Shown piece after piece: positions 1 to 32,978 of a DNA stretch of 32,978 bases. The position numbers and the translations under genes are program-made. A model generated the notes under the pieces. It did not search any database. It was given only the letters and a program-made list of their open reading frames with translations, and was not told where the DNA came from. Source of the stretch: a virus; the IMG/VR virus record IMGVR_UViG_3300007352_000036, positions 1 to 32,978 of that record; one strand, written 5' to 3'. The stretch's first letter is position 1. Every line of letters begins with the position of its first letter.

Positions 1-2
1 TC

Positions 3-263
3 GAAGTCGGCGCGAAAAGAGATGGCGAGTGGCTGCAATTCTGGATACGCGATAACGGTCCGGGCGTCCCACCCGCAGACCGCGAACGCATCTTCGATAA
101 ATTCACCCGCCTGCGCGGAAAGAACACACCCGGCGGGCTGGGCGTTGGACTGGCCTTCTGCCGCCTTGCGGTGCAGGGACATGGCGGCCGCATCTGGGTG
201 GGGGCACCACTCTATAGACGCAGTATCCAGTTTGTTATACGTCGACAACGACGATCACCTTGA
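3..263 (+). CDS. Sensor histidine kinase, C-terminal ATPase fragment (5' truncated by contig start)
   Basis: This is the only credible plus-strand gene. It is open from the first bases and ends at TGA 261-263. Its 86 residues contain the HATPase_c signatures of histidine kinases: a DNGPGV G1 box, an IFDKF F box and a GGLGVGLAFC G2 box, followed by the usual HGGRIWV strand. Such domains bind ATP and phosphorylate the dimerisation-domain histidine of a two-component sensor. After RIWV the sequence (GAPLYRRS onward) no longer resembles the usual ESxPGxGSxFxFxLP ending, so the true end of homology may be near base 203 and the rest may belong to a junction. The gene converges on the phage fibre gene, with one base between the two stop codons. 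It looks like host DNA beside phage DNA, through integration or a chimeric assembly. Confidence 0.8.
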   Translation, partial: EVGAKRDGEWLQFWIRDNGPGVPPADRERIFDKFTRLRGKNTPGGLGVGLAFCRLAVQGHGGRIWVGAPLYRRSIQFVIRRQRRSP

Positions 264-4147: not shown

Positions 4148-5992
4148 CTACGCCTCCTGCTCCAGCCGCCTGCGGACCGCATCGGCGATCATCGGGGCCA
4201 GCACCTGCTCCGCCTCGTACCGATCCCCCAGGCTGACCGCGGGCGAATAACTAAACTGGATGATGATCCCGCCTTCCGCCAACGCATCGCTCCTCGACCT
4301 GATGGCGGGCGCGCTGTCGAGTGCCGTTGTCGTGGCTGTTGCCAATGCAGGCGTGAACGCATTCGGCGTCAACGTATCGTTCCAGCCTCCGATTGTCCCG
4401 AGTGCTAGGTTTGTGCCAATGTAGTCGTGCATCAACTTCGACTCTGAATGGATTCCGAAGAACCCCGCCAGCACATCCGCAATCGCCTGCCCAAACGAGA
4501 CGATCTGATTCAGCGCCCAGCTCGCCATGGACATCAAGCCGTTCACGATTCCCTCTGCGATCATCCTTCCAAGATGACCCCAGTCCGTCGTCGTGAAGAA
4601 ATTGATGACGCCGTCAATCATTCCCTTCACAATGATCTTGATGTTGTTCCACGCGGTCTTCAACACTTCCCCGATCAACTTCCAGTTTCGGTCCCATATC
4701 TTTCGCAGTTCCTCGCCGAACCCATGCCAATCCCCCTGAAAAGCCAGGGAGAATAGTCTGAATATGCTCTTGATATTTTCAACCGCCGTGTTGAACCACA
4801 GCTTGATCAACTCCCACGTGTTATGCCACGCCTGCGAAATGAACCCCAGTTTGCCAGCGGTAAAATCGCTCATGAACTGCATCCCTGCCTGCAATATCCC
4901 CTTCACAAAATCAATCCCCGCCCTCGTCTTCTCCTGGATGCCTCCCCAGTTTTCTGTCCATGCTCGATACAGCAAATACCCGATGGCGATCAACGCCGCA
5001 ATGACCGCGATCACGATCAACACAGGCACAGTGATTGCCCCGATCACCCCGATGATCGCGCCGAGCGCGGTAATCAGCGTACCGATGATTACCAGCAACG
5101 GCCCCAGAATCGCCAGCGCCGCCCCGATTCCAATGATCCATTTCTGCTGTTCAGGGCTGAGCGCCTGGAACTTCTCGATCAGTCCGCTCAACCATTGCAC
5201 GAATTGCAACGCATACGGCAACAACTGCACCCCCAGCGCCGCCGCCGCATTCTCGAACTCCGCCTTCAAAATTCTCTGCTGGTTGGCCAGTCCATCCGAT
5301 GTCCGCGCAAAATCTCCCGCCGCATTTGCCGATTGTTCCAGAATAAGTGCGTAGCGCGCCTGTGCCAAAGCGGCCGCGGTGAGCGAACCATCCGCTCCCG
5401 CCAGTCCCATCTCCATCGCCTTCGCTTCCACCGCCGTCTGGCTTAAGTTGATACCCAATGTCCTCAGCGGTTCCACCTCCCCCACCAACCCCGAACGCAG
5501 TTTCTCTAACACCTCGGTCGGGTCCATGTTGTTGAACGAAGCCAGGTCGCTCGCCAACTGCACCAGCCCCATGGACATATCCGCCGAAGCATCCTGCCCC
5601 AGCCCCATCGTAGTAAACAGGTTGCCAAACGTTCCCGCCGCCGAGAGTGCTGTGTTCTGGCTCATCCCCATCGCCTGCGCTGATGTCGTGCTCCAATCCA
5701 GCACGCCTCCAGACATCTCCCCAAAAACGACCATGACCTTATTCTTCGTTTCCTCCAGGTCGCTCGCATAGTTGATCGCCGCCATCCCTGCCACCGCCAT
5801 CGGCAGGGTTAGAAACGTGGTTGCCTTCATCCCCAGATTCGTAATGTCCCCGCCCACACTCTTCATGCTCTGGCTGACGCGTCCAGACCATGTCTGCGTC
5901 GTTCGTTCCGCCGCATCCATGGCCTGCGTAAAAGCCGCCGCATCCGCAATCAGTTTTACTGCCAGTGTCGCAATCGTTGTCATAGTTTTCAC
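4148..5992 (-). CDS. Tail tape measure protein
   Basis: 614 aa. A helical scaffold inside the tail tube that sets tail length and is ejected before DNA. The N-terminal region (FTQAMDAAERTTQTWSGRVS) and residues ~60-270 (LEETKNKVMVVFGEMS, GLVGEVEPLRTLGINLS) match the TP901-type core. Residues ~284-345 are a long hydrophobic stretch with two to three membrane-type segments (IIGIGAALAILGPLLVIIGT, then IVIAVIAALIAIGYLL). At about 0.15 nm per residue the tail would be near 90 nm. The start is uncertain: GTG at 5992 has GGGGA seven bases upstream, while the ATG at 5983 has no good ribosome site. It follows the gpG/gpGT pair as expected. Confidence 0.9.
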   Translation of the reverse strand: MKTMTTIATLAVKLIADAAAFTQAMDAAERTTQTWSGRVSQSMKSVGGDITNLGMKATTFLTLPMAVAGMAAINYASDLEETKNKVMVVFGEMSGGVLDWSTTSAQAMGMSQNTALSAAGTFGNLFTTMGLGQDASADMSMGLVQLASDLASFNNMDPTEVLEKLRSGLVGEVEPLRTLGINLSQTAVEAKAMEMGLAGADGSLTAAALAQARYALILEQSANAAGDFARTSDGLANQQRILKAEFENAAAALGVQLLPYALQFVQWLSGLIEKFQALSPEQQKWIIGIGAALAILGPLLVIIGTLITALGAIIGVIGAITVPVLIVIAVIAALIAIGYLLYRAWTENWGGIQEKTRAGIDFVKGILQAGMQFMSDFTAGKLGFISQAWHNTWELIKLWFNTAVENIKSIFRLFSLAFQGDWHGFGEELRKIWDRNWKLIGEVLKTAWNNIKIIVKGMIDGVINFFTTTDWGHLGRMIAEGIVNGLMSMASWALNQIVSFGQAIADVLAGFFGIHSESKLMHDYIGTNLALGTIGGWNDTLTPNAFTPALATATTTALDSAPAIRSRSDALAEGGIIIQFSYSPAVSLGDRYEAEQVLAPMIADAVRRRLEQEA

Positions 5993-10067: not shown

Positions 10068-11228
10068 TTACGAACCCGAACCGTTGCTTCCAACGGTCAT
10101 CTTCGGATCCATGCGCGTCCCGCCAAACACGTGGCGCAGTTTGTGCTCGATGGCGTCCGTCTCGAAGTCGCCATCCATCGCATCGCTTCCACCGCCTACG
10201 CGGGTCTGGTTCGGGGTCTTCATGAAGATCTCGGGCTCCTCGTGGCCGATCAAGAAACCCAGTTCCATCGCGGGGCGTCCGTTGTCGGGGTTCGCGAACA
10301 GGAACCACGAAGTGTTCCCGTTGGCCGTGCTCGCCACAATCGGGATGTACGCGTTCTTGTTCGGGCGGAAGGTGGTCTTCATCCAGTTCTGGAGCGTCAA
10401 CTTTCTGGCGCTCGTGCCGCCTTTCTCGGTCGCCTCGATGGTGATCGCGTTCAGGATGTTCTGCGCCGTCACTTCCAGAACAGGCGGGTAGACCAGCTCG
10501 ACCGTATCAATCACGATCGGCTCGCCGTTCTGGTCAACCTGGCTCGAAAGTTTCTCGAGCGCGGTCTGCAAACCCGCAATCGAAAGTGCAGGGTTGCCCG
10601 TGACGATGTTCGCGTTGCCTACGGTGTAGAACGAAGCGTGCGGACCGCTCGCGTCCACGAACAACTGCGTTGCGAATTTCTCCTCCGAACGCCGCGCCGC
10701 GCGTCCCAGTCGTTCAGGCTGGTCTTTCAGCGCGTCCAGGTCATCGTTGACCATCGTTTCCCAGGCGAAGCGGATCTTGCGGCCATACTTGCTCACCGCG
10801 TAGGAATAGGGCGTATCCTCGTTGATCTCCTCGTAGGGATATTCTCCCTTCTCGCCAACGACAGAGCCAAGCACCTGATCCGCGCCGTACACGCCGAAGC
10901 GTTTCACCGTGCGGAAGTCGCGCACGCGGCCGCGTTTGCAATAGTTCTGCCACGTGGTAGGCCACTCGCGATACGATGCCAACACCTGGCGGTCCAGGAT
11001 GTCGCCGAAAAGATACGGGAAGTCGCTGGTCGTCATTGCTTCCTGCAGGTAGTGCATTGGCCGCTTGCCGTTGTACACATCCGCAACCAACTTTACAGCC
11101 TCGCTGAGCTTCGCCAGATATTGTGGACTGTGCCTGCCGACGCGCACGCGCTGTCCTTCCCCTCCAAACAACCGTTTCACGCTCGCTTGTTCCGAGCGCA
11201 TGGTTTCGAGCAGTTCTAGCATTTCCAT
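10068..11228 (-). CDS. Major capsid protein (HK97 fold, Mu gpT-like)
   Basis: 386 aa. The block YAVSKYGRKIRFAWETMVND, then DLDALKDQPERLGRAARRSE and EKFATQLF is the characteristic spine-helix region of Mu gpT-like major head subunits. The C-terminal half contains the P-domain segment IDTVELVYPPVLEVTAQNIL and the ending PEIFMKTPNQTRVGG, typical of this group. The N-terminal ~60 residues are helical and may act as a scaffold-like arm. It follows the decoration protein and the protease-scaffold gene in standard order. It forms the icosahedral shell. Confidence 0.9.
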   Translation of the reverse strand: MEMLELLETMRSEQASVKRLFGGEGQRVRVGRHSPQYLAKLSEAVKLVADVYNGKRPMHYLQEAMTTSDFPYLFGDILDRQVLASYREWPTTWQNYCKRGRVRDFRTVKRFGVYGADQVLGSVVGEKGEYPYEEINEDTPYSYAVSKYGRKIRFAWETMVNDDLDALKDQPERLGRAARRSEEKFATQLFVDASGPHASFYTVGNANIVTGNPALSIAGLQTALEKLSSQVDQNGEPIVIDTVELVYPPVLEVTAQNILNAITIEATEKGGTSARKLTLQNWMKTTFRPNKNAYIPIVASTANGNTSWFLFANPDNGRPAMELGFLIGHEEPEIFMKTPNQTRVGGGSDAMDGDFETDAIEHKLRHVFGGTRMDPKMTVGSNGSGS

Positions 11229-13685: not shown

Positions 13686-14657
13686 TCACTGTTTCTTCAC
13701 TCTCGTCAACAAGTCGCATCTACACCCAGGGAACCGCAATGGCCTCTGGTGTCCGCTCGGAAATGACGCATCCAGCTTGATCCAGCCAGCCGCCGCGTTC
13801 GCCTTGCAACCATCGGAGACCTTATCGTCCCCGACCGTGTCCCAAAACTTCTCCATATCCAGGCCTGCCGCTTCCAATTCTTGTGCCGCCTGCAACCGTC
13901 CTTCGGTGTATGCGTTCCCTGTTTCGGTCACGGCAATCAGGTGTGCGCGGCTTTCAATGTGCGCTTGCGGCTTGCCGATCGCAAACTCCTCGTACCGCTC
14001 GATCAACGCCTCCGCAATTCGGTCATACGACCACCCCTCTTTGGTCGCCTGCTCAAGGATGGTCTCGATGTAATCCCGCGTCGTCTCGTTGATCTTCGTC
14101 ACCATCCTTGCGCCGTACTGATCCAGGTACGCCACTGCGCTCGGGTTCACCAATGTGAACGATATGCCAGCGCCCAAACTCGCGATCTCTTCCAGTGCGC
14201 CTGCCAGAAGCGACTTCTTCACCGCATCGTCAATCGGCTTCGAGAACAACATCAGCGTCTTCTGCGCCACCGCATGGAACACAAACATCCACTCCGTTGG
14301 CAGGATGGCCTCCGATAGCTCCCTTTCTCCATCTGTACTCAGATGGGGAAAGGGCGGGGGGATAGGGGCCTCTCCCCTCTCCAAATTCGTGCTCTCCGAA
14401 TTTGGGGAGGGGCTGGGGGTGGGGCTAAACCGATCCCGAAACTTCCTCAACCCTCGCTCGAACTGCCTGCCCTGCTCGCGGAACGCTTTCCGCATTGCCA
14501 GTTCAAGACTCCGCTCGATCCTCTCCCTGCGCTTCATCTTCTGCGACCGCCGCACGGCCTCCACGAACTCCTCAGCCAATTTCAACAAGACATCACTCTC
14601 CTCGAGCAACGTCTTGGACTGCGCGCTGACGACTGCGGACTGATCACCGATTCCCAT
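13686..14657 (-). CDS. Phage head morphogenesis protein (SPP1 gp7 / Mu gpF type) with two repeat inserts
   Basis: 323 aa. The C-terminal half carries the family hallmarks: HLIAVTETGNAYTEGRLQAA, then DMEKFWDTVGDDKVSDGCKA, and the ending HQRPLRFPGCRCDLLTRVKK with paired cysteines. The family consists of minor head proteins that bind the portal and are ejected or stay inside the capsid. Residues ~78-112 are two back-to-back family A elements read as SPTPSPSPN...LERGE and PIPPPFPHLSTDGERE. They separate a basic N-terminal helix domain from the conserved domain. The start overlaps the portal stop by 14 bases. Confidence 0.85.
   Translation of the reverse strand: MGIGDQSAVVSAQSKTLLEESDVLLKLAEEFVEAVRRSQKMKRRERIERSLELAMRKAFREQGRQFERGLRKFRDRFSPTPSPSPNSESTNLERGEAPIPPPFPHLSTDGERELSEAILPTEWMFVFHAVAQKTLMLFSKPIDDAVKKSLLAGALEEIASLGAGISFTLVNPSAVAYLDQYGARMVTKINETTRDYIETILEQATKEGWSYDRIAEALIERYEEFAIGKPQAHIESRAHLIAVTETGNAYTEGRLQAAQELEAAGLDMEKFWDTVGDDKVSDGCKANAAAGWIKLDASFPSGHQRPLRFPGCRCDLLTRVKKQ
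14321..14368 (+). repeat. Family A palindromic element, copy 12 (inside CDS)
   Basis: Long-tail variant with CCCTTTCTCCATCTG and CAGATGGGGAAAGGG, ending GGGGGGATAGGGG. It is read in frame within the head morphogenesis gene. Confidence 0.9.
14374..14424 (+). repeat. Family A palindromic element, copy 13 (inside CDS, tandem with copy 12)
   Basis: Arms CCCCTCTCCAAATTCG and CGAATTTGGGGAGGGG, five bases from copy 12 in the same orientation. It gives SPTPSPSPN...LERGE in frame. Confidence 0.9.
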
Positions 14658-16368
14658 CAGCCACCTTCGCCATCTCAGACCTGATCCCCTCGATCAACTT
14701 CCGCGCCGCTTCCTTCACCAACGCCTCGCTCGGCGTCAGTTTCCCGTTCCCCATCGGTGGTCGAGTAGCCGTACTCGGCGTATCGAGACCAGGGGTGGGG
14801 CTAGGTTCCCCTCTCCCTGCAGGCACCGTCTCACCATCAGGGAACAACTCCGCCATGATCTCGTCCACATCGTCTTCGGCCATCGCCCTTAAGATCAAAC
14901 GCGTCGCGGTCTGCTCATCCAGCAAAGTCAACTGCTGGCCATTCAACGTCAGCGCCGTCACCACTGCCTGCACTGCCGCCTGAATGTCCTTCTCCAAAAT
15001 GGGCGGGAAATCAATATCGAGCATCGTATTCACGCCGCTATTCCACACAATCGTTTCTTCGATCTCATCGCCATCGGGCGTCTTTTCAATGCGGCCCAGC
15101 TTCTTGATCGGCGAATCATTTGCCTTCATCGCCTGCAACAAAACAAAATTGAAAATAGATCGAAACACATCCGTCCAGAACGTTTGGCGTTCCTTCATCG
15201 CCAGTTCGGTCGGTCTGTCCATCGTCTTCGCCGTCGCAAACGTACCAACGCTCACGTCGCCGAAATAGGTCTCAGGCAGTCCCACGCCCGCCGCCACCAT
15301 CAACAGGAAGCGCCTGCCATCCTCGGCAGAGATCGCCGCCCCGCGTAATTGCATCGGTTGCAGGTCTGTCCCCTCTCCCAAAAACGCCATCGCCCCAGTG
15401 ACGGGCGGCGGGTTCGTCTCACTCTCACTGCTTCCGCCGCTGGCTAGCGTTGTTGCCAATTTCGCCTTTTCCGCCGCAATTGCCTTCTTCCCCTTCGTGA
15501 TTCGCTTCCACGCAAAACGGCTGTAGGCGCGCATCAGGCTCGCTACGTCTTCCAAAAATTCCTTATATGCCCGCGCCCAGTCAATCGCGCAATACACCTG
15601 GCTCACCCCAAATTTCCATGCGCTCATTCCGCCCGTCTTCACGTGATAAACGGGATAGTTCCACATCACCTCGGTATCGCCGATCTTCGCGGGCTTCACC
15701 TTCGGCGTGTATTTCCAATCTGGGTAATAGGCTTTGCGTTGTTTCGTGCTGGTGCGTCCCGTCGCCTTGTTCAGTTTCTTCTCAGACCATCGGCGCAGGT
15801 AATACCAGGAAGTCTTGGAATCTTCAGGATCGCTCACGATCTCCGCGACCTCGTCGAACGGCAGGGTACGGACGCGCACGCGTCCATCCGAAGGCCGCGT
15901 GAAAAAGACAAAGAATATATTGCTTTCGACTTCGTAATCCACCTGCTTGAGCATCTGCGCCTGGTGGCTGGTCAACTCCGTGCGGTTCTTCTCATCGTCC
16001 CAGAAATCCTGTAATACTTTGTTCAAGTCACGATTCTTGTATTTGACACTGACGCCCTGCGCCCACACATACAAAGACATCACCAGCACTGCGCGGTTGA
16101 TCAGCGGATTCTTGATGTACATCATCCTCGCCAGGTCGGTGATCTTGCGGATGCCGTCTCGCGTGAACTCATGTTCGCTCTCGAACATCAGGCGCATCCA
16201 ATTCGCATCCTCCAGCGCCAGTTCCAGTTCGGCCATACGTTCGGTCAGCACTTCCTCGTTGAACTCCGCCTGCCTGGCTTCCTCGCGCAAAGACTCAATC
16301 GTCTCCTTCACATCAGAGAGATTGATGCCAGTAAAACGCTCGATCACAGTGCTTCGAAAATCGGCCAT
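14644..16368 (-). CDS. Portal protein
   Basis: 574 aa. It lies between the large terminase and the head morphogenesis gene. The N-terminal coiled coil (LSDVKETIESLREEARQAEF) is followed by portal-type sequence: DLARMMYIKNPLINRAVLVM, then VSVKYKNRDLNKVLQDFWDD, and VASLMRAYSRFAWKRITKGK. The segment FLLMVAAGVGLPETYFGDVS, then FATAKTMDRPTELAMKERQ is a strong portal signature. The dodecameric ring at the capsid vertex is the DNA gate and the terminase docking site. Residues ~525-537 are translated from a family B palindrome, and the sequence around it retains scraps of family A tail and head. Confidence 0.9.
   Translation of the reverse strand: MADFRSTVIERFTGINLSDVKETIESLREEARQAEFNEEVLTERMAELELALEDANWMRLMFESEHEFTRDGIRKITDLARMMYIKNPLINRAVLVMSLYVWAQGVSVKYKNRDLNKVLQDFWDDEKNRTELTSHQAQMLKQVDYEVESNIFFVFFTRPSDGRVRVRTLPFDEVAEIVSDPEDSKTSWYYLRRWSEKKLNKATGRTSTKQRKAYYPDWKYTPKVKPAKIGDTEVMWNYPVYHVKTGGMSAWKFGVSQVYCAIDWARAYKEFLEDVASLMRAYSRFAWKRITKGKKAIAAEKAKLATTLASGGSSESETNPPPVTGAMAFLGEGTDLQPMQLRGAAISAEDGRRFLLMVAAGVGLPETYFGDVSVGTFATAKTMDRPTELAMKERQTFWTDVFRSIFNFVLLQAMKANDSPIKKLGRIEKTPDGDEIEETIVWNSGVNTMLDIDFPPILEKDIQAAVQAVVTALTLNGQQLTLLDEQTATRLILRAMAEDDVDEIMAELFPDGETVPAGRGEPSPTPGLDTPSTATRPPMGNGKLTPSEALVKEAARKLIEGIRSEMAKVADGNR
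14758..14791 (+). repeat. Family B palindrome, copy 1 (TGGTCGAGTA...TATCGAGACCA), inside portal gene
   Basis: Imperfect inverted repeat with arms TGGTCGAGTAGCC and GGCGTATCGAGACCA. It is directly followed by AGGGGTGGGG and, four bases on, CCCCTCTCC, which look like tail and head fragments of family A elements. It is read in frame as GLDTPSTATRP. Confidence 0.75.
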
Positions 16369-16429: not shown

Positions 16430-18013
16430 TTACACAGGTGATATGCTCACCCGCTCCTCGAAAATTACTTCTTCGTCATCGTCGTTCTTCAACTGCTCCA
16501 CGATCTGACGCAGTTGGTTGTACGCGCTCGATGCCGCGTCCACACGGTCCTTGAATCTGCCCTTCGGAAATGCCGCCATCTCATCCAGGAACGCATCGTT
16601 CCACGCGCCTCGCACCACGCGCACACGCCCGCCCTTGGCCTTCGTGGCCAGCATCCCTGCATAGAATTCTTTACTGCCTGTTACCTGGTCGAATGTTCCG
16701 ATCAATCCGTTATCGGCCAGCAAATTGTTAAACGCCTGCGCACTGTCCAATCCAGCCGAGCCAGGGTCTTGCGGATGCCAGATGATGAACGGTCCATCAT
16801 TGGCATAATCTTCCTTCCCCAACGAAACCATGAACTCATCCCGTTCCGCAGATGACAATTGCTCCGCAACGGTGTGCTCGATATAAATAAAATCGTCCTT
16901 GCCCCAACTCATCTTCACGCCGCTCGTGCGCGCCCCGCCCCCAGAAGTGGCCGCCTTATCCCAGGCGCGTATCCGCGCCCATACGTCACGCGGCGGAGCA
17001 TCCACGATTGTGAACCAATCTCGCTTGAACATATTCCCCTCTTTGGAAAACGGGCTCTGCTGATACAACGCCTCGAAATCGTACAGCCCCACATCCGCCT
17101 TCGTGGATGCCAGCCATGCCTCGTCATACCACTCTGGACACAACGCCGCCCCACCCGACCTTCCCAACGGATCAGCCAGCGGAAGGAACACACCATCCCG
17201 CATCATCTTGCGCTGTTCGTCCTCAGTGGGATACTTCTCCAGCGCCAGCGCAGGCATGCACACGATCTCGTACTGCGACGTCAGCGGATCACTAACCATC
17301 CTCTGCATCAACCTCCCCGCTAAATCATCGGGATGCCACCGCGTGTGGAAGATGACCACCGCCGCATTCGGCCTGAGACGAGTGCGCGCCGCACTTTTAA
17401 ACCAGTCATCCACCAGGTCGCGCCGCCCCTCGCTTTCGGCTTCCTCACGGTTCTTGAACGGATCGTCAATGATGAATAGATGCGCGGGCAAGCCCGTAAT
17501 ACCGCCGCCCACGCCCGCCGCCTTTACCCCGCCTCGGTAGGGTTTTGCAAGGTCCCATGCCTCGGTCGAGCGTGAATCGGATGACAGCTCCACAGGCCAG
17601 ATCTTGTTGCTCTTGCTCCCGAAGATCGCCTGGTATTCTTCGGTCGTGACCATGTCGCGGATATGCCTGCTGTGCGTGGTGGCCAGGCTCTCACCATAGG
17701 ACGTCAGGATGATGCGGCTATCGGGTAACAATCCCAACAGCCATGCAGGGAAGTGACGGCTTGCCAGTTGACTCTTGCCATGCTGGGGCGGCATGAAAAT
17801 CATAAGACGTCCGATGCCGCGCTTGCCTCCGCTGGCAATGTATAAAGCCACCTGCTGGAGTTTTGCCGCCAACAAGCGAATGTGCGGCTGATCCTCGTAA
17901 CGCGGATCCACGAACTGGCAATAAGCCATGAAATTCCTGCGTGCCTTCACGCGCAGGTCTTTCTCTGTCCTGGCTTCCGATGGTGTCATCAGCAGGTCAG
18001 CCGCTGGAAACAT
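16430..18013 (-). CDS. Terminase large subunit
   Basis: 527 aa. The ATP-driven packaging motor. Walker A is PPQHGKS at residues 75-81, after LMIFM. Walker B is HLFIIDDPFKNREEAES with D183-D184 and the catalytic acid nearby. The IILTSYGESLATTHSRHIRD segment is the usual adenine-binding/C motif region. The C-terminal nuclease domain begins at IRAWDKAAT (about residue 344), whose aspartate should bind metal, and continues with MSWGKDDFIYIEHTV. The start ATG 18013 has GAGGA upstream and overlaps the small subunit by 17 bases. Confidence 0.95.
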   Translation of the reverse strand: MFPAADLLMTPSEARTEKDLRVKARRNFMAYCQFVDPRYEDQPHIRLLAAKLQQVALYIASGGKRGIGRLMIFMPPQHGKSQLASRHFPAWLLGLLPDSRIILTSYGESLATTHSRHIRDMVTTEEYQAIFGSKSNKIWPVELSSDSRSTEAWDLAKPYRGGVKAAGVGGGITGLPAHLFIIDDPFKNREEAESEGRRDLVDDWFKSAARTRLRPNAAVVIFHTRWHPDDLAGRLMQRMVSDPLTSQYEIVCMPALALEKYPTEDEQRKMMRDGVFLPLADPLGRSGGAALCPEWYDEAWLASTKADVGLYDFEALYQQSPFSKEGNMFKRDWFTIVDAPPRDVWARIRAWDKAATSGGGARTSGVKMSWGKDDFIYIEHTVAEQLSSAERDEFMVSLGKEDYANDGPFIIWHPQDPGSAGLDSAQAFNNLLADNGLIGTFDQVTGSKEFYAGMLATKAKGGRVRVVRGAWNDAFLDEMAAFPKGRFKDRVDAASSAYNQLRQIVEQLKNDDDEEVIFEERVSISPV

Positions 18014-27031: not shown

Positions 27032-27286
27032 CTAATCATCATCAACCACAAACGCCGCGATAATCTCATCCGCCGCCTTGCGCGCCGCAACCACATCCCC
27101 ATCCTCGATGACAGTCTCGATCACCCCCCCCATCATCAGGCGGCGCATCACCAACGGAAAGCGTTTTCTCGGCGGCAATCCATCCAGCCACTCCAGCAAC
27201 GCATCCACCTGCGGATCAACGCCCCGCTTCAAATACCCGTCAATCCGCACACGCTCACTTGGTACTTTATCTTTTGGTCTCGCCAT
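27032..27286 (-). CDS. ParR-like small DNA-binding partner protein
   Basis: 84 aa. Its position just downstream of the ParM-like gene is the usual parMR order. The sequence RVRIDGYLKRGVDPQVDALL, then EWLDGLPPRKRFPLVMRRLM and MGG resembles ribbon-helix-helix ParR-type proteins (a beta strand, then a helix with basic residues, then a Leu-rich helix). The C-terminus is acidic, as in proteins that cap actin-like filaments. ParR binds centromere repeats and links the DNA to filament ends. Assignment is by size, position and pattern, so moderate. Confidence 0.55.
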   Translation of the reverse strand: MARPKDKVPSERVRIDGYLKRGVDPQVDALLEWLDGLPPRKRFPLVMRRLMMGGVIETVIEDGDVVAARKAADEIIAAFVVDDD

Positions 27287-27302
27287 GGTTCACTCCTCAT
27301 CT

Positions 27303-27360
27303 CCCCCTTTCTCCAAACGAGTTCTTCCGTTTGGGGAAAGGGGGACGGGGGGATAGGGGG
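27303..27360 (+). repeat. Family A palindromic element, copy 17 (long variant, intergenic)
   Basis: Arms CCCCCTTTCTCCAAACG and CGTTTGGGGAAAGGGGG with a tail ending GGGGGGATAGGGGG. It separates the ParM-like and ParR-like genes, with its purine-rich end next to the ParR-like start. Confidence 0.85.
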
Positions 27361-27367
27361 CTGGGGG

Positions 27368-28345
27368 TTACTTCCTATTCGCCAACTTCCACAACCCGCG
27401 CGCAATGCTCAACACAGGCAGATTCGGCACAAACGCCTTCATCCCGAACTGCGCCGTCAGCGCATCCTTCAAAATCAGTGCGCCGCCACCGACAACGATC
27501 ACCCTCGCAAAGCGGCGATAAGACTGCCCCCAACGCTTCTCGATCTCGCCGTTCACCTCGCGGCCCCAGATGGGAAGCGCAGATTTCAACTCGCTCTTCA
27601 TCCGTCCCGCCCGCAAGCGTTCATCCAGCTCGCCGAGCGAAAACAAACCAGCGTGATTCATCAGTTCCAGCAAACGACGCACACCGATGGTGTTGCCCTG
27701 CGTAAACCGCTCCACCGCGCCCTGGTCTTTTACTACCATCAACTCCACAGTGTTAAAGCCCACGCTGATCACCCCCACCTCGTCCAACAGCGCATCCGCT
27801 CGCTCCGCCTGAATTTGACCAGCCTCATCCAGCACATAATCAAACAGCGCGCCCACGGGCTGGCTCGTCAATCGCACCTGTCCAACCTCCAATTTGTGCG
27901 CCTTGCCGTCCACCTCGAATTCGTGGACACCCTTCAACCACGACTTCACGCCGCTCTGGAATTCCTTCGCCTTCTCCCCCACCATCATCTGCAACGGCAG
28001 TCCCACCATCAGCGAGATCGGCACGGCGAAAGCGCCATGCATCGCCTGATAATCCGCCAGCGTCCCATACAGCAACGCCCGCATTTCAGGCGCGCCCGTC
28101 AAACGGTCAAAATCCAGGTTCTCCACAGGACGCCCATACTCGTGCGCTCCCTGCCCGATGTAGAACGCGCCGAAACCACCGCGCACCTCCATCGGACGGC
28201 GCTTCGCCTTCAACCCAGTCATCCCTTCCAGGTGTCCGCCCGCGCTCGTTGCCACCTGGCTCACCACCTGCAACCCGCCTGCAGGTCCCCAAACCTTATT
28301 CGCCCCCATCCCCAAGTCCTCGCCGATGTAGATCATGTCGTTCAT
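27368..28345 (-). CDS. ParM/Alp-type actin-like ATPase
   Basis: 325 aa. Start ATG 28345 with GGAG seven bases upstream and overlapping the translocase stop. Actin-fold motifs are visible: phosphate 1 at YIGEDLGMGANKVW (D10), phosphate 2 in GVISVGFNTVELMVVKDQG and an adenosine-type motif VIVVGGGALILKDAL near the C-terminus. The sequence GGFGAFYIGQGAHEYGRPVE fits ParM-like plasmid actins. Such proteins form filaments that push sister plasmids apart. With the ParR-like gene, it is a candidate segregation system for an extrachromosomal phage. Confidence 0.75.
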   Translation of the reverse strand: MNDMIYIGEDLGMGANKVWGPAGGLQVVSQVATSAGGHLEGMTGLKAKRRPMEVRGGFGAFYIGQGAHEYGRPVENLDFDRLTGAPEMRALLYGTLADYQAMHGAFAVPISLMVGLPLQMMVGEKAKEFQSGVKSWLKGVHEFEVDGKAHKLEVGQVRLTSQPVGALFDYVLDEAGQIQAERADALLDEVGVISVGFNTVELMVVKDQGAVERFTQGNTIGVRRLLELMNHAGLFSLGELDERLRAGRMKSELKSALPIWGREVNGEIEKRWGQSYRRFARVIVVGGGALILKDALTAQFGMKAFVPNLPVLSIARGLWKLANRK

Positions 28346-29763
28346 TCCGTAACTCCTTTCGATAGATGATTATTGACGGTTAAGAATTTGCCAACATTTC
28401 TGGCGGCCACAAACCCTGAACTGGTTTGGACACCGTCTGTGCGCTCGGACGCCGTTTGGACGGGTTTGGACGCCCAGGGCGTTTGGACAAAAAACCAGGC
28501 ATTATTGGCGTTCGCCCGCTTCTCGATCAACCCGCGGCTCGCCCAGTCATCCCGAATTCGCCGCGCCGCCCGCTCGTTCATGCCGTAGACCTCCTGGATG
28601 CCCGACAGATCTGCCCTACCCTCGAACTGCTCAACCATCTGTCCGATCTTCACTTTCTCCGCCTCGCTCACCTGCGGACCCTTAGCCTGGTCGCCGCTTC
28701 CGAGCGCATCCTTTGCTACCAGGTACGTCTGCACCAGTCCTGATGGCATCATTGCTCGCCCTGGATAAATCAGCCGCTCCGCGCCGCGTCGCCCGATCAC
28801 GACATCCGACGTGCTTGGGCGTTCCACACGGAAACACAACCTCGTTCGCATCTGCTCACGCACAGGTCCAACAATATCCTTGCTGAAATCCTGCCCAGCC
28901 AAAACCAGGCGGATTCCAAACTTCAACCCGCGCCACGCGATCTGCGTTGCCATCTTGGCGAACTCACTGTTCGGCCCGCCCAGTGCAAGCACGATGCTCG
29001 AAAATTCATCCATCATCACCATCACAGGCGGGAGCGGCTCGCTTGCTTTCTCGTTGTACTCGCTCAAATTATCTGGATGCCAGTTCGCTTCCTCGAACAA
29101 ACGCACACGCCTTTTTAACTCGCCAACTGCCATCTTGATCAAGTTGGCAAATCCCTCCTCATTGTTGACGATCGGCATCATCAGGCTCTGGTCGCCCTTC
29201 ATGCGGCTGAACGTTCGCCCATCCACATCGCCCAACAAAAACCGATGTCCCTCGGCCAGCGCCTGAAGCAAGAGTAGACGCAGGAACGTGGACTTGCCAA
29301 ATTGCGTTTCACTCGCCACCAGCACATGCCCCAACTGATCCCACGTCATATTCAGCGGACGTCCGTTCGAGCGCATCCCGATCTGCACCACGCCCTTGCG
29401 TACGCCAGGGAAAAGGATCTCCTTCGGCAGCGCAGGCCGATCAGAAAGCAACACTGCATAACGGAAGCCCGTTGTATTGCTGATAAAAACATCCCGTCCT
29501 CGCAGACTTGTGCTCAATGCGTGCAACGCAGTCACCCACGGCTGGTAACTCTGCACGCGCAGGTCATCCACCACCGCAAATAACAGCGCCTCGCCTTCGT
29601 TGGTCTCTGTCAACACCCAGCGCTCGATCAGGCTCGGGTCCGTGCCGCGTAAAGACTTCAGCACTTCCAAAATGATCTCAGCCGCTGTCTGTGCCGCTGG
29701 AACATAGCGACTTGACGCACGCACGGGAACCTTGCTCAAGGAAGAAGCCATATTTGCGATCAT
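28342..29763 (-). CDS. FtsK/SpoIIIE-HerA-like DNA translocase with winged helix
   Basis: 473 aa. ATG 29763 with GGAGG four bases upstream. The ATPase core has Walker A GHVLVASETQFGKSTFLRLL (K157, S158, T159), Walker B PPVMVMMDEFSSIVLAL (D252, E253) and the FtsK-type strand IRLVLAGQDFSKDI. The C-terminal GIQEVYGMNERAARRIRDDW, then ASRGLIEKR is a winged helix, likely DNA-binding. The protein is soluble, without membrane segments. Such motors move double-stranded DNA during division, conjugation or plasmid transfer. It neighbours a ParM-like protein and a lipoprotein with a membrane segment. Confidence 0.8.
   Translation of the reverse strand: MIANMASSLSKVPVRASSRYVPAAQTAAEIILEVLKSLRGTDPSLIERWVLTETNEGEALLFAVVDDLRVQSYQPWVTALHALSTSLRGRDVFISNTTGFRYAVLLSDRPALPKEILFPGVRKGVVQIGMRSNGRPLNMTWDQLGHVLVASETQFGKSTFLRLLLLQALAEGHRFLLGDVDGRTFSRMKGDQSLMMPIVNNEEGFANLIKMAVGELKRRVRLFEEANWHPDNLSEYNEKASEPLPPVMVMMDEFSSIVLALGGPNSEFAKMATQIAWRGLKFGIRLVLAGQDFSKDIVGPVREQMRTRLCFRVERPSTSDVVIGRRGAERLIYPGRAMMPSGLVQTYLVAKDALGSGDQAKGPQVSEAEKVKIGQMVEQFEGRADLSGIQEVYGMNERAARRIRDDWASRGLIEKRANANNAWFFVQTPWASKPVQTASERTDGVQTSSGFVAARNVGKFLTVNNHLSKGVTE
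28424..28488. repeat. Four GTTTGGAC repeats just upstream of the ParM-like gene
   Basis: Copies at 28424, 28454, 28464 and 28481, all in the same orientation (spacing 30, 10 and 17 bases). They lie inside the 3' end of the translocase gene, 79-143 bases ahead of the ParM-like start. Candidate centromere (parC-like) or operator. Confidence 0.45.
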
Positions 29764-30791
29764 CGCGCCTCCTTATCGTCTGCCTGGCGGGTCACATCCT
29801 CCACCCATTCCTTCACCACCTCGGCGTCCACGATCTCGATCCTTGGTTTATCCTGTTGAACATTTCCAAAAACATTGTTGTAAAGACTTGTAGACATCTG
29901 CGGCGGCACATTCGCAGGAAGAGCCTTCAATGCCTGCACACCCTGCGCCCTGCGTGTCACTTCTGACTGCTCTTTTGGATCGACATGCTCAGCGCCAACT
30001 TCCAACAACATAAGCGGCCGCGCCATCAACTGTGGCTTGAATGCCTTCTTGTTATCCATAATGACCGCATCAGTCTCGCCAGTCTCATCATTCTTGATCT
30101 CCCGCACCCGCGAGCGGCGGATCACATACATCGAAACCAATGCAGTCATGGCAAGCGAGATCAGAAATGGGATCAACCATTCCAGCGTATTCTTATCGCT
30201 CTGTTGTTTCACTTCCAGGTTGCTCAACTCGACCTCGTTCGTTGCCAGCGCCTGCTCGACTGCAACCGCCTGTTGTGTCCACTGATCGTGAATCGGAAGC
30301 ACCTGCAGGGTTGCCGCGTTCCACGTCGCCACCATCTGCGCCGTGGCAGTCCCGATCACATTCTGTCTTCCCTGCTCTGCGGTCGCCTCCAAATCCCGCC
30401 GCGCCTGTTCGGTCGCCGCTTCATCACGTTTGCGTTGTTCCGTTGCCGCCGCGTCATCCCGTTTCTGCTGTTCTGTCGCCGCCGCATCCTGGCGGTTCCG
30501 TGCATCGGTCGCCTGCGCATCCTTGCGCGCCTGCTCGGTAACTCCAAGCGCCGCCTGCGTGTTCTGCACATTCTGCGTCACCCAGATCACCTGGGCGGTT
30601 GCAGTGAACTGCACATTCACGGCCATCTGCGTCGCCTCGGCATCCACCTTCTGCGCCATCATCGTCATCGCAATCTCCGCAGGGTTGGCAGGAATAGGCG
30701 TGGGGATCGGCGCGGGCTCATCCCCGCATCCCGCCAACAAAATGGCCGCAAACGGCAAAGCCAAAACCAAAAGAATGATTGTTCGTTTCAT
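29760..30791 (-). CDS. Coiled-coil lipoprotein with a membrane segment
   Basis: 343 aa. ATG 30791 has GGAGAG upstream. The signal peptide ends in a lipobox LLAGC (C22). Residues ~50-150 are a long Ala/Gln/Thr-rich coiled coil with ten-residue-type repeats (DAAATEQQKR, DDAAATEQRKR, DEAATEQARR). Residues 204-224 are a membrane segment (EWLIPFLISLAMTALVSMYV), followed by a ~115-residue cytoplasmic-type tail. It would sit as an envelope rod anchored at both ends. The next gene downstream is the DNA translocase, and they overlap by four bases. A role anchoring DNA transport or segregation at the envelope is an inference. Confidence 0.7.
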   Translation of the reverse strand: MKRTIILLVLALPFAAILLAGCGDEPAPIPTPIPANPAEIAMTMMAQKVDAEATQMAVNVQFTATAQVIWVTQNVQNTQAALGVTEQARKDAQATDARNRQDAAATEQQKRDDAAATEQRKRDEAATEQARRDLEATAEQGRQNVIGTATAQMVATWNAATLQVLPIHDQWTQQAVAVEQALATNEVELSNLEVKQQSDKNTLEWLIPFLISLAMTALVSMYVIRRSRVREIKNDETGETDAVIMDNKKAFKPQLMARPLMLLEVGAEHVDPKEQSEVTRRAQGVQALKALPANVPPQMSTSLYNNVFGNVQQDKPRIEIVDAEVVKEWVEDVTRQADDKEAR

Positions 30792-31352: not shown

Positions 31353-31687
31353 ATGAACCAAATGAACTTGGATGAACTTGGCGTTCCGCCCAAGGACCAG
31401 CCGCCCAAACCTTCTTTTAGACCCATAACAAATGAAAGCCGAAAGCAACCTGTAAGTACATCGAAGTTCATTAAGTTCATTAAGATATAGAATAATCGTT
31501 CTAAAATAGCCTTCCAATGAACCAAATGAACCTCGATGAACCACTTTTTGGGGGCGGCAACTACATTTGTTTTGTAACCAGCCGCCCAAAACGCACACTT
31601 ACGCGCAATAAACGCCATTTTTCCCGCGACAAAACAAAGTGAATCGCAGGATGCGAAAACATGTTCATTAATGTTCATTTGGTTCAT
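31353..31687. repeat. Four clusters of triple ATGAAC repeats (iteron-like)
   Basis: Each cluster has three ATGAAC units spaced 9 then 10 bases: 31353-31377 (+), 31456-31480 (reverse, one unit degenerate ATGTAC), 31517-31541 (+) and 31663-31687 (reverse). Alternating orientation over 335 bases of otherwise non-coding sequence between the replication ATPase and the next gene. The last cluster overlaps the ATPase stop. Confidence 0.75.
31489..31517 (-). promoter_or_regulatory. Possible promoter with overlapping operator
   Basis: On the minus strand -35 TTGGAA (31512-31517) and -10 TATTCT (31489-31494) are 17 bases apart, each with four of six consensus bases. The -10 overlaps AGAACGATTATTCT (31489-31502), which resembles the LexA-type palindrome at 22406-22419. 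The -35 overlaps ATGAAC cluster 3, and the predicted start lies at cluster 2. Confidence 0.35.
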
Positions 31688-32919
31688 TAATCCACCTCCT
31701 CATCGAACATCGCACCCTGTTCAAGATTTTCTGGTCGAGTAGGCGCGGCGTTTTTCGCCATATCGAGACCAGCGTCATCATCCCTCATCGCCGCCCGCAA
31801 CGCATCTGTCAACCCATAGCGGATCTTCGCCACTTCCAACTTGTCCTCGTCGAACACGATCACAAAACCTTTCCCCATACGATGGCTTGGAAGCATCAGC
31901 GTATCCTCGCAAATACTCCCCGCTGTTTTGGTCGTCAGGCTCTTGCCGCGCCGCTTCGCCTTTTGTTCCTCCTCGGCGTTCTCCTCCCCATCGCCCAGGT
32001 TCATCTCATCCATGACCTCGTTTGCCACCACCGCAATGTCACGCGTGAAAGCGTATTTCGCCATTCCGAATCCATTCAACTCGCCCATGTACAAATACTT
32101 GGAATACTTCTCGTTTTCCAGGATGGCGATCACCGCATCCAGCACACGTGCATCCAATCCCTGAGATCGCTTCATCACACTATGGTGATACAGTGACCGC
32201 GCGAACATCTCGATGTCCTTCAACATGGATTCATCGTCTTTTGCAATATATTTCAACGGCCTGATCACCTCATTGTGGCGGGTGCTGATCGTGTAATCGG
32301 TCAAATCCTCATTGATGCTGAATTCGTCCACTTGCCATTTTTCCAAACGCCAGCGCAGGAGTTTATTCACCACCGTCTGCCGTTCTGTATAAAACCTCGG
32401 TGGCAATTCCTGGGGGATTCCCTTTTTCTTCAATTCCAGCGGTGAATGCTGTGACATTTCAAAGGTCACACATCGATTCTCCGTTGCATCGTCCTTGAAA
32501 CGGCCATACATCGTGATGATCTTGGGACCGTACACATACGCCATCTCGGAACGTTGCCGCCTCGTCCCATCAGGCATCATTACCTCCACCATCTTCCAGA
32601 CTTTGCCCGTTTTCTTTTTATATCCCACGTTCAATAGCACGCCGCGGTCGTCGAACTTATCGCTGATGTCCATCTCGTCCATGAACAGCACCCCGCGAAA
32701 CGTGTCAATCGCGTCCTTGTAGGATGCAGTCGTGCTGATGCCCGTCGAGATGATCAGCCGATAGCACAAATAACCAATGCGGAGCATCACCTCCGTCTTG
32801 CCCGTGTCCGTCCCGCCCCGCGCCCGCAGGTATGGGATCGCTGGAAAACAATCGTAGAGATAGGTCAACATCACGTAATACGATGCCAGCCTGTACTGCA
32901 ACGGATTGTCGAAGAGCAC
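31687..32919 (-). CDS. AAA+/SF3-like replication ATPase, truncated at the contig end
   Basis: 410 codons visible. The apparent GTG start at 32919 is only the last codon before adapter sequence, so the N-terminus is missing. Walker A is ARGGTDTGKTEVML with the conserved GKT. Walker B is GVLFMDEMDISD. A sensor-type block follows (VYGPKIITMYGRFKDDATEN, then RCVTFEM). The C-terminus has a winged-helix-like segment (GKGFVIVFDEDKLEVAKIRY). Family B copy 2 (31732-31771) encodes GLDMAKNAAPTRP near the end. Most similar in pattern to helicase/primase-type ATPases of phages and plasmids. It is followed by the ATGAAC iterons, which fits a replication module. Confidence 0.6.
   Translation of the reverse strand: MLFDNPLQYRLASYYVMLTYLYDCFPAIPYLRARGGTDTGKTEVMLRIGYLCYRLIISTGISTTASYKDAIDTFRGVLFMDEMDISDKFDDRGVLLNVGYKKKTGKVWKMVEVMMPDGTRRQRSEMAYVYGPKIITMYGRFKDDATENRCVTFEMSQHSPLELKKKGIPQELPPRFYTERQTVVNKLLRWRLEKWQVDEFSINEDLTDYTISTRHNEVIRPLKYIAKDDESMLKDIEMFARSLYHHSVMKRSQGLDARVLDAVIAILENEKYSKYLYMGELNGFGMAKYAFTRDIAVVANEVMDEMNLGDGEENAEEEQKAKRRGKSLTTKTAGSICEDTLMLPSHRMGKGFVIVFDEDKLEVAKIRYGLTDALRAAMRDDDAGLDMAKNAAPTRPENLEQGAMFDEEVD
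31732..31771 (+). repeat. Family B palindrome, copy 2, inside the ATPase gene
   Basis: Arms TGGTCGAGTAGGC and GCCATATCGAGACCA. It is read in the same frame as copy 1 (14758-14791), giving GLD...TRP in both proteins. Confidence 0.75.
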
Positions 32920-32920
32920 A

Positions 32921-32978
32921 AGATCGGAAGAGCGTCGTGTAGGGAAAGAGTGTAGATCTCGGTGGTCGCCGTATCATT
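32921..32978. other. Illumina TruSeq universal adapter (sequencing artefact)
   Basis: The last 58 bases start AGATCGGAAGAGCGTCGTGT and end GGTGGTCGCCGTATCATT, the exact reverse complement of the full-length TruSeq universal adapter. They are not biological. The minus-strand frame beginning MIRRPPRSTLFPYTTLFRS is a well-known adapter artefact in protein databases. Confidence 0.97.

Follow-up and report, generated by a model that had tools for sequence, protein, structure and literature searches.

A ParM-type partition pair and a lipoprotein-FtsK module with a stepped repeat array in a candidate phage-plasmid from Chloroflexota

The IMG/VR virus record IMGVR_UViG_3300007352_000036 (32,978 nucleotides, the whole of which is called the window here) carries a ParM-like actin gene, a ParR-like gene and a short FtsK-like motor gene beside the structural genes of a tailed phage. 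We propose, with a probability of roughly 55%, that the window derives from a temperate or plasmid-like tailed phage with two adjoining modules, an actin partition pair and an envelope-anchored pump for double-stranded DNA (dsDNA). The partition pair belongs to a known kind of partition system. The second module, in which a lipoprotein gene, the motor gene and a stepped array of short repeats stand together, is the more surprising part. It is a variant of FtsK/TraB-type systems and is new here: no earlier description was found in the literature searched, most subscription journals lying outside it. The two modules and the replication region that adjoins them are laid out as follows.

27032..27286, minus strand: ParR-like small basic adaptor, 84 amino acids (aa), probable ribbon-helix-helix
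27368..28345, minus strand: ParM-like actin, 325 aa (from Pfam, PHROG and a profile against solved structures)
28342..29763, minus strand: short FtsK-like motor, 473 aa, with a C-terminal winged-helix-like region and without an N-terminal membrane domain
28424..28488, minus strand: four exact GTCCAAAC units in the ftsK end, steps 17, 10 and 30, candidate motor loading site
29760..30791, minus strand: lipoprotein, 343 aa, with signal, lipobox LAGC, a coiled region and, near residue 202, another hydrophobic segment
30800..31177, minus strand: 125-aa protein at the operon start, function unassigned, with a weak relative in locus L020
31354..31723, no strand: iteron-like region with 12 GTTCA/TGAAC repeats, candidate replication origin
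31687..32919, minus strand: primase-helicase, C-terminal part, cut by the contig end (recognised through full relatives)

The actin is of the ParM type. It matches Pfam ALP_N (6e-9) and MreB-like_C (PF21522; 7e-8), both above the gathering score, and phrog_691 "partition protein" (5e-27); the NCBIfam ParM and PRTRC-D models match it below their cut-offs. A profile of 15 actin relatives gave five matches at E<=1 among solved structures, namely pCBH ParM (two sequences; 1e-7), the ParM in 3js6 (7e-5), which we take to be of the pSK41 type, Alp12 (0.002) and CorM. An identity as MreB was rejected, as MreB is not among these five matches and MreB_Mbl gave no match at E<=1 in Pfam. At the phosphate-2 motif (residue 194) all 20 aligned actins have serine (ISVGFNT) in place of the aspartate of pCBH ParM (IDVGFKT). 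This aspartate has an established role in ParM, and judging by the alignment the serine may alter nucleotide hydrolysis. Relatives of the actin occur at 14 IMG/VR loci (67-95% identity) and at 14 loci in Anaerolineae/Chloroflexi genomes (48-64%). Thirteen genomes lie behind the latter loci; 11 have no terminase (phrog_38) match and two, G019 and G024, have one. Elsewhere, the circular Paenibacillus larvae plasmid NZ_CP019718 and phage API480 (MK533143; loci of the two, L081 and L085) have in common a ParM, a small downstream gene and a MazEF block, which suggests a phage-plasmid with actin partition.

The 84-aa protein matched no curated family. Its family follows the actin in 14/14 viral loci by BLAST and in 14/14 genome loci by position and alignment, BLAST finding four of the latter and the others being picked by position. 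The virus Rctr41k has a related open reading frame (ORF) downstream of its actin as well. When the family profile was compared with 241 ORFs from eight plasmid or phage ParM loci, ranks 1 to 4 were all taken by ORFs directly after ParM, ranks 1 and 2 being identical copies and rank 4 having an E value of 0.31. One structural model of the protein matched 2q2k, presumably pSK41 ParR, weakly (44/44 residues aligned, Z 3.5, rmsd 2.1), and a second model gave no fold match. These comparisons point to a probable ParR-type partner of the actin, with a probable ribbon-helix-helix fold. The original prediction of a ParM-like actin paired with a ParR-like protein beside tailed-phage genes is supported: the profile matches of the actin are of the ParM type, the MreB matches that would speak against it were looked for and not found, and the 84-aa neighbour is kept beside the actin in the relatives examined. 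Three loci without the ftsK array have direct repeats just after parR, with a 22-bp or 14-bp step (L033 after 7221; L012 after 9266; L014 after 9834), and these are possible alternative centromeres. Self-matches of the window also reveal a family of scattered repeats, each some 50 bases long and many of them intergenic (at about 2074, 6154, 7383, 7892, 8110, 8615, 13637, 14374, 16380 and 27283-27362); the last of these separates parR and parM.

The motor matches Pfam FtsK_SpoIIIE (PF01580; 3e-8) and phrog_1358 (1.5e-32). Its highest 19-residue hydropathy is 1.4, and no membrane domain of the housekeeping-FtsK kind was found on the same chain, in agreement with the soluble FtsK-like motor that had been predicted. 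The NCBIfam TraB model did not match the window motor and matched its L023 homologue below the cut-off (0.0012), so we liken the motor to TraB in its working only and do not file it as TraB. Upstream of the motor, automatic scoring found an ORF with a lipobox and a membrane segment in 11 of the 23 short-FtsK loci that have any ORF there, and in 8/14 of a viral set collected later; the lipobox pattern was strict and missed some evident signals. BLAST ties the upstream proteins of L128, L129, L130, L131 and L133 to the lipoprotein family of the window. Among the 14 viral actin loci, several of which are short upstream, relatives of both FtsK and lipoprotein were found in L020 only. In a side observation, a lipoprotein-FtsK-ParM-recombinase-primase module on a 133.6-kb contig (G116:C15 62839-73225; L067, L068) adjoins contractile injection system genes (eCIS core, sheath, baseplate).

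The array at the 3' end of ftsK sets this module apart. There are no further copies of GTCCAAAC in the window; shuffles average 1.35 copies and hold at least four in 5/100, so it is the clustering of the units and not their count that is the signal. L020 has GCCAAACC-type units at the corresponding ftsK end, with steps of 8, 9, 10, 10 and 9, and variant units occupy the corresponding place in L022-L028. When the loci are pooled, the phasing peaks near 9.5-10 bp, at a strength that none of 500 random placements attained. The pattern of the family is one of 8-bp repeats stepped 8-9-10-10 bp, found in plasmid-like elements and tailed phages, and the unit sequence varies between lineages while the spacing persists. 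The closest module (L143) has an FtsK 69% identical to that of the window and the GTCCAAAC unit at steps of 17, 10, 11 and 19, with lipoprotein, ParM, ParR and terminase together on a 42-kb contig. In L031 the array stands at the end of ftsK, a long way from parM, and it occurs without ParM in the stretch concerned in C77, L130, L132, L144-L146, L148-L150 and L155-L157. It therefore tracks FtsK rather than ParM, and we regard the motor as a second module and not as part of ParM-ParR. An envelope-linked device for DNA partition or transfer had been suggested for the lipoprotein and the motor; the recurrence of this pair with its own cis array speaks for the idea. As in TraB/clt systems, direct repeats lie in cis beside the motor gene, and by this analogy the array appears to be where the motor itself loads, rather than a parC.

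A mere peptide repeat in the FtsK tail was considered as the source of the array and was rejected for most loci, where the spacings are not multiples of three; in L031, L114 and L156, moreover, the array lies past the stop codon. The window alone cannot decide this question because three of its four units share a frame. A second lipoprotein-FtsK pair is present in the window's own genome bin (C77, L128, 6581-9048), with the array TGTCAAAC at steps of 8, 9, 10, 20 and 11 and a tyrosine recombinase nearby, and without ParM.

The association was examined further with loci added through FtsK relatives in 396 genomes of the class, 30 genomes being reached at E<=1e-30. With a pass set at p<=3/100 shuffles, the array was detected in 28/33 loci with short FtsK genes (341-647 aa), that is in 9/9 of the discovery set and in 19/24 others, seven of which had been inspected previously and many of which a previous version of the test had covered. 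It was detected in 0/8 loci with longer FtsK (636-892 aa, the shortest overlapping the short class in length). L110 and L117 yielded no FtsK ORF and were dropped. A viral scan with a single FtsK sequence gave no matches; an alignment-based scan gave the later viral set of 15 loci, collected by FtsK similarity alone. The array is present in 13/15 rows of this set, or 10/12 once the record of L020 itself is removed and two duplicate pairs are merged. Seven distinct loci have the array and no ParM in the stretch examined, and a terminase was matched in 7/14 records of the set, weakly in one. A unit-blind scan was made of 1.005 Mb in 98 chosen loci (not random genomes), seeking four 8-mers at any three gaps of 7-12. 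The gaps 8-9-10 appeared ten times, nine of them distinct (duplicates were taken out by hand and one remained), all at ftsK 3' ends and on the sense strand. The mean over the 216 gap triples was 0.65, and only 7-7-7 exceeded 8-9-10 (31 occurrences). Unit similarity also covaries with the winged-helix region across 23 array-bearing loci (Mantel 0.54; partial Mantel given the motor domain 0.40; both reached in 0/500 permutations). As loci that are related are not independent of each other, the covariation counts as support and not as proof.

From these elements a working scheme can be drawn. The identity of parM-parR is read from sequence; in action, the actin and its DNA-binding adaptor would push sister phage genomes apart. 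The C-terminal winged-helix domains of the motor would bind the stepped array, and this binding would load the motor ring onto the element's own DNA. The lipoprotein may tether the motor to the envelope, and dsDNA would then be pumped through the septum or into a neighbouring cell in the manner of TraB and clt. Replication probably begins at the iteron-like region next to the primase-helicase. A wider proposal, of which we are doubtful, is that an undescribed, envelope-anchored translocation system is common to tailed phages and plasmids of Anaerolineae-type Chloroflexota. It would consist of a lipoprotein with a membrane segment, a short FtsK-like ring motor and a loading site whose stepped geometry outlasts changes in the repeat sequence. 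A phage genome inside the cell could then pass as dsDNA through septa or into adjacent cells, no virions being made, while ParM-ParR would retain it in both daughter cells.

Several observations weigh against the two-module proposal. The winged-helix pattern at the motor C-terminus is visible in the alignment, and Pfam HTH_23 matches it at E 0.26, below the cut-off. The Walker A of the window motor (SETQFGKS) deviates from that of the other motors. The lattice in the window is degenerate, with exact units at 0, 17, 27 and 57 and the points 8/9, 37 and 47 unmatched. The array was undetected in the short FtsK loci L034, G116, L107, L108 and L111 and in the viral loci L147 and L154. Among 60 control gene ends in the same loci, seven pass the loose test, mostly with constant-step iteron-like arrays; one of the seven is an ftsK array read from the opposite strand, several have constant steps of 9, 11 or 22 bp, and none has 8-9-10. 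The array was found in 0/8 control motors, comprising Tra-type motors of pIJ101 and three other Streptomyces plasmids and four Bacillota FtsK, so the link to clt is by analogy only. Finally, the left end of the window joins a host gene, which argues against a purely extrachromosomal life.

How the phage is maintained depends on the rest of the window. The siphovirus-type structural operon that had been predicted is confirmed by terminase, portal, capsid/protease, major tail protein, tape measure and endolysin genes. Four of these genes and the two ends of the record are as follows.

1..201, plus strand: host histidine-kinase gene, 3' part, with the phage junction at about 201
4148..5992, minus strand: tail tape measure protein (phrog_1535)
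10068..11228, minus strand: major capsid/protease-type protein (phrog_133, phrog_4523)
14644..16368, minus strand: portal protein (phrog_10963)
16430..18013, minus strand: terminase large subunit (phrog_38)
32921..32978, plus strand: Illumina adapter read-through

The tail-fibre protein had no match among viral sequences. A 161-aa protein at 26537-27022 matches phrog_17260 (3.6e-59) and has homologues in Leptospira phage LE1 and in mycobacteriophages, MooMoo, Yoshi and Sparky among them. Full-length relatives of the primase-helicase match a DnaG-type zinc ribbon above the cut-off and Toprim weakly. In 8/10 loci the stretch 3' of the primase gene is enriched in GTTCA repeats, the window having 12 against 1.35 expected; L011 and L016 have zero or one such repeat within a fixed 600-bp stretch. 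The operon adjoins the primase-helicase and the iteron-like region, which gives a plasmid-like layout. Of the features of a phage-plasmid, tailed-phage structural genes are present, and so are plasmid-type partition genes (the ParM pair) and replication genes of its own (the primase-helicase with the iteron-like region).

The original prediction of an episomal phage-plasmid had leaned on the lack of a visible integrase. This lack is true of the window itself and fails as an argument, since near-complete relatives carry tyrosine recombinases. Phage_integrase is found in 8/14 records of the viral relatives, and tyrosine recombinases are found in all six relatives' records read whole and in Rctr41k. 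In the record of L020, the closest relative (actin 95% identical), the tyrosine recombinase lies upstream of the primase, past the point at which the window breaks off. The record stops at 32920, within the primase-helicase gene, and the remaining bases (32921-32978) are what we take to be Illumina adapter; the apparent lack of an integrase is therefore an artefact of truncation. The unremoved adapter forms part of a minus-strand ORF at 32705-32977. On another phage contig (L013 659-1648) a tyrosine recombinase scores above the NCBIfam integron integrase cut-off (411 bits). Exact end overlaps of 127 bp were found in two of the six relatives read whole, with an offset of 1,949 bases in one case, and the ends of G007 have diverged similarity. 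The overlaps fit circular or permuted DNA and do not separate a plasmid from packaged phage DNA. A phage-plasmid life is plausible, and the genome may reside in the cell episomally, within the chromosome, or in both states. The episome reading draws on the partition genes, the phage genes and the plasmid-like layout; it is unproven, with the integrase argument gone and a host-gene junction at the left end.

This junction speaks for the reading as an ordinary prophage, in which a tyrosine integrase would insert the phage into a histidine-kinase gene and ParM and FtsK would be accessory or serve the lytic cycle only. The window corresponds to contig C22 (32,879 bases) of a genome bin of 3.94 Mb, 84% complete and in 149 contigs, and we infer that the phage host is a Chloroflexota bacterium of the Anaerolineae type. 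The window opens with 27 bases that are identical to the last ones of contig C145, and the reading frame of that contig runs on into the window. Homology of host relatives to the left end stops at 187-201, a sharp break about 60 bases beyond the last phage gene (ORF 265-894); a junction 25-mer had no match among viral sequences. That relatives carry a tyrosine recombinase fits integration as well. Against this, a second junction was not seen. The 20 positions at which the window and C22 differ all lie inside 47-146 and hint at an unreliable contig end. The circular-type end overlaps and the retention of the ParM pair in the relatives examined likewise count against an ordinary prophage. The join may be a genuine prophage end or integration junction, or it may be a chimera, and the ordinary prophage is on balance a rather unlikely account.

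The recombinases bear on a further reading, in which the motor serves multimer resolution. Dimer resolution of the Xer type for chromosomes is a familiar task of the FtsK superfamily, in which SpoIIIE and the KOPS sites are equally familiar. By extension, the motor would load at the array in a KOPS-like manner and activate a Xer-like recombinase of the element, and dimers would be resolved before segregation by ParM. In L020 and L023 the module has XerC/XerD-like recombinases (below the NCBIfam cut-offs) close by, as it does in several other elements. However, recombinases are also present in relatives without this FtsK, and resolution would not require a lipoprotein partner. We consider this use of the motor unlikely.

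The array was at first read as the centromere parC, with the 84-aa protein coupling the repeats to ParM filaments and FtsK as a mere neighbour. Its position lends this some appeal: a ParR-type neighbour is present, and in the window, L020 and L022-L028 the array lies 80-145 bp upstream of parM with a phasing of about 10 bp. The reading was downgraded once the array was seen to track FtsK. Where FtsK is missing or encoded elsewhere, parM has no array upstream; in L031 the array is at the ftsK end, distant from parM; and loci such as C77, L130, L132, L144 and L148-L150 have the array and no ParM. A parC at this place is improbable. Least probable of all is that the actin serves, during infection, to place capsids or replicating phage DNA instead of segregating an episome, with the motor as a superinfection or packaging accessory: distant actins do occur in SPO1-like and other Bacillus phages and PHROGs file phage FtsK-like proteins under moron/host takeover, but plasmid ParMs are the best matches of the actin and the pair also occurs in genomes without a terminase match.

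Should the stepped array be where the motor loads, its geometry would limit the ways in which rings of the FtsK/TraB type can form on DNA, and the numerous natural units, each with its winged-helix region, would offer material from which to derive a recognition code. It would then also be shown that some phages carry a plasmid-style kit for transfer and partition, which bears on their persistence and spread in Chloroflexota communities, and the motor with its array would be a marker for finding such elements.

Several known systems resemble parts of this arrangement. The virus Rctr41k (KX853513) has an actin 56.6% identical over 100% and related terminase and tape measure families; unlike the window it has two tyrosine recombinases and, by BLAST, no FtsK or lipoprotein relative. 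Phage-plasmids with actin partition (Bacillus pBS32 with AlfAB; Paenibacillus API480 and NZ_CP019718) likewise combine phage-type and actin partition genes on one replicon, whereas their actins are distant (23% for API480) and the FtsK-lipoprotein-array module was not seen in the 6.9-kb stretches examined. In pBS32 there is precedent for actin partition on a phage-like plasmid (PMC6751061), and a compost plasmid-like element is described as carrying both ParB and ParM (PMC10462680). The chromosome translocases FtsK and SpoIIIE have the motor domain in common with the window motor, which differs in being short and free of an N-terminal membrane domain; as given above, the array was not detected with any of eight longer FtsK. 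Type II ParMRC systems (pCBH ParM, pSK41-type ParM, Alp12) are alike in having an actin-like gene with a small basic adaptor gene downstream, and they provide the best solved-structure profile matches of the window actin. They differ from the window family in the aspartate that serine replaces there, and the array near parM tracks FtsK; a ParR-specific centromere could not be assigned. The Streptomyces TraB/Tra-clt systems for dsDNA transfer (pWTY27, pIJ101 and pSVH1) differ from the window system in that the latter has a separate lipoprotein partner and belongs to a family with a stepped spacing that was not seen where tra ends in pIJ101 and three other Streptomyces plasmids. The two kinds of system are alike in having an FtsK-like motor with direct repeats by or over the end of the motor gene. 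The clt of pWTY27 comprises 16 bp within traA and a further 159 bp (PMC3583192), and TraB of pSVH1 recognises 8-bp repeats through a winged helix (PMC3583192, PMC12857230).

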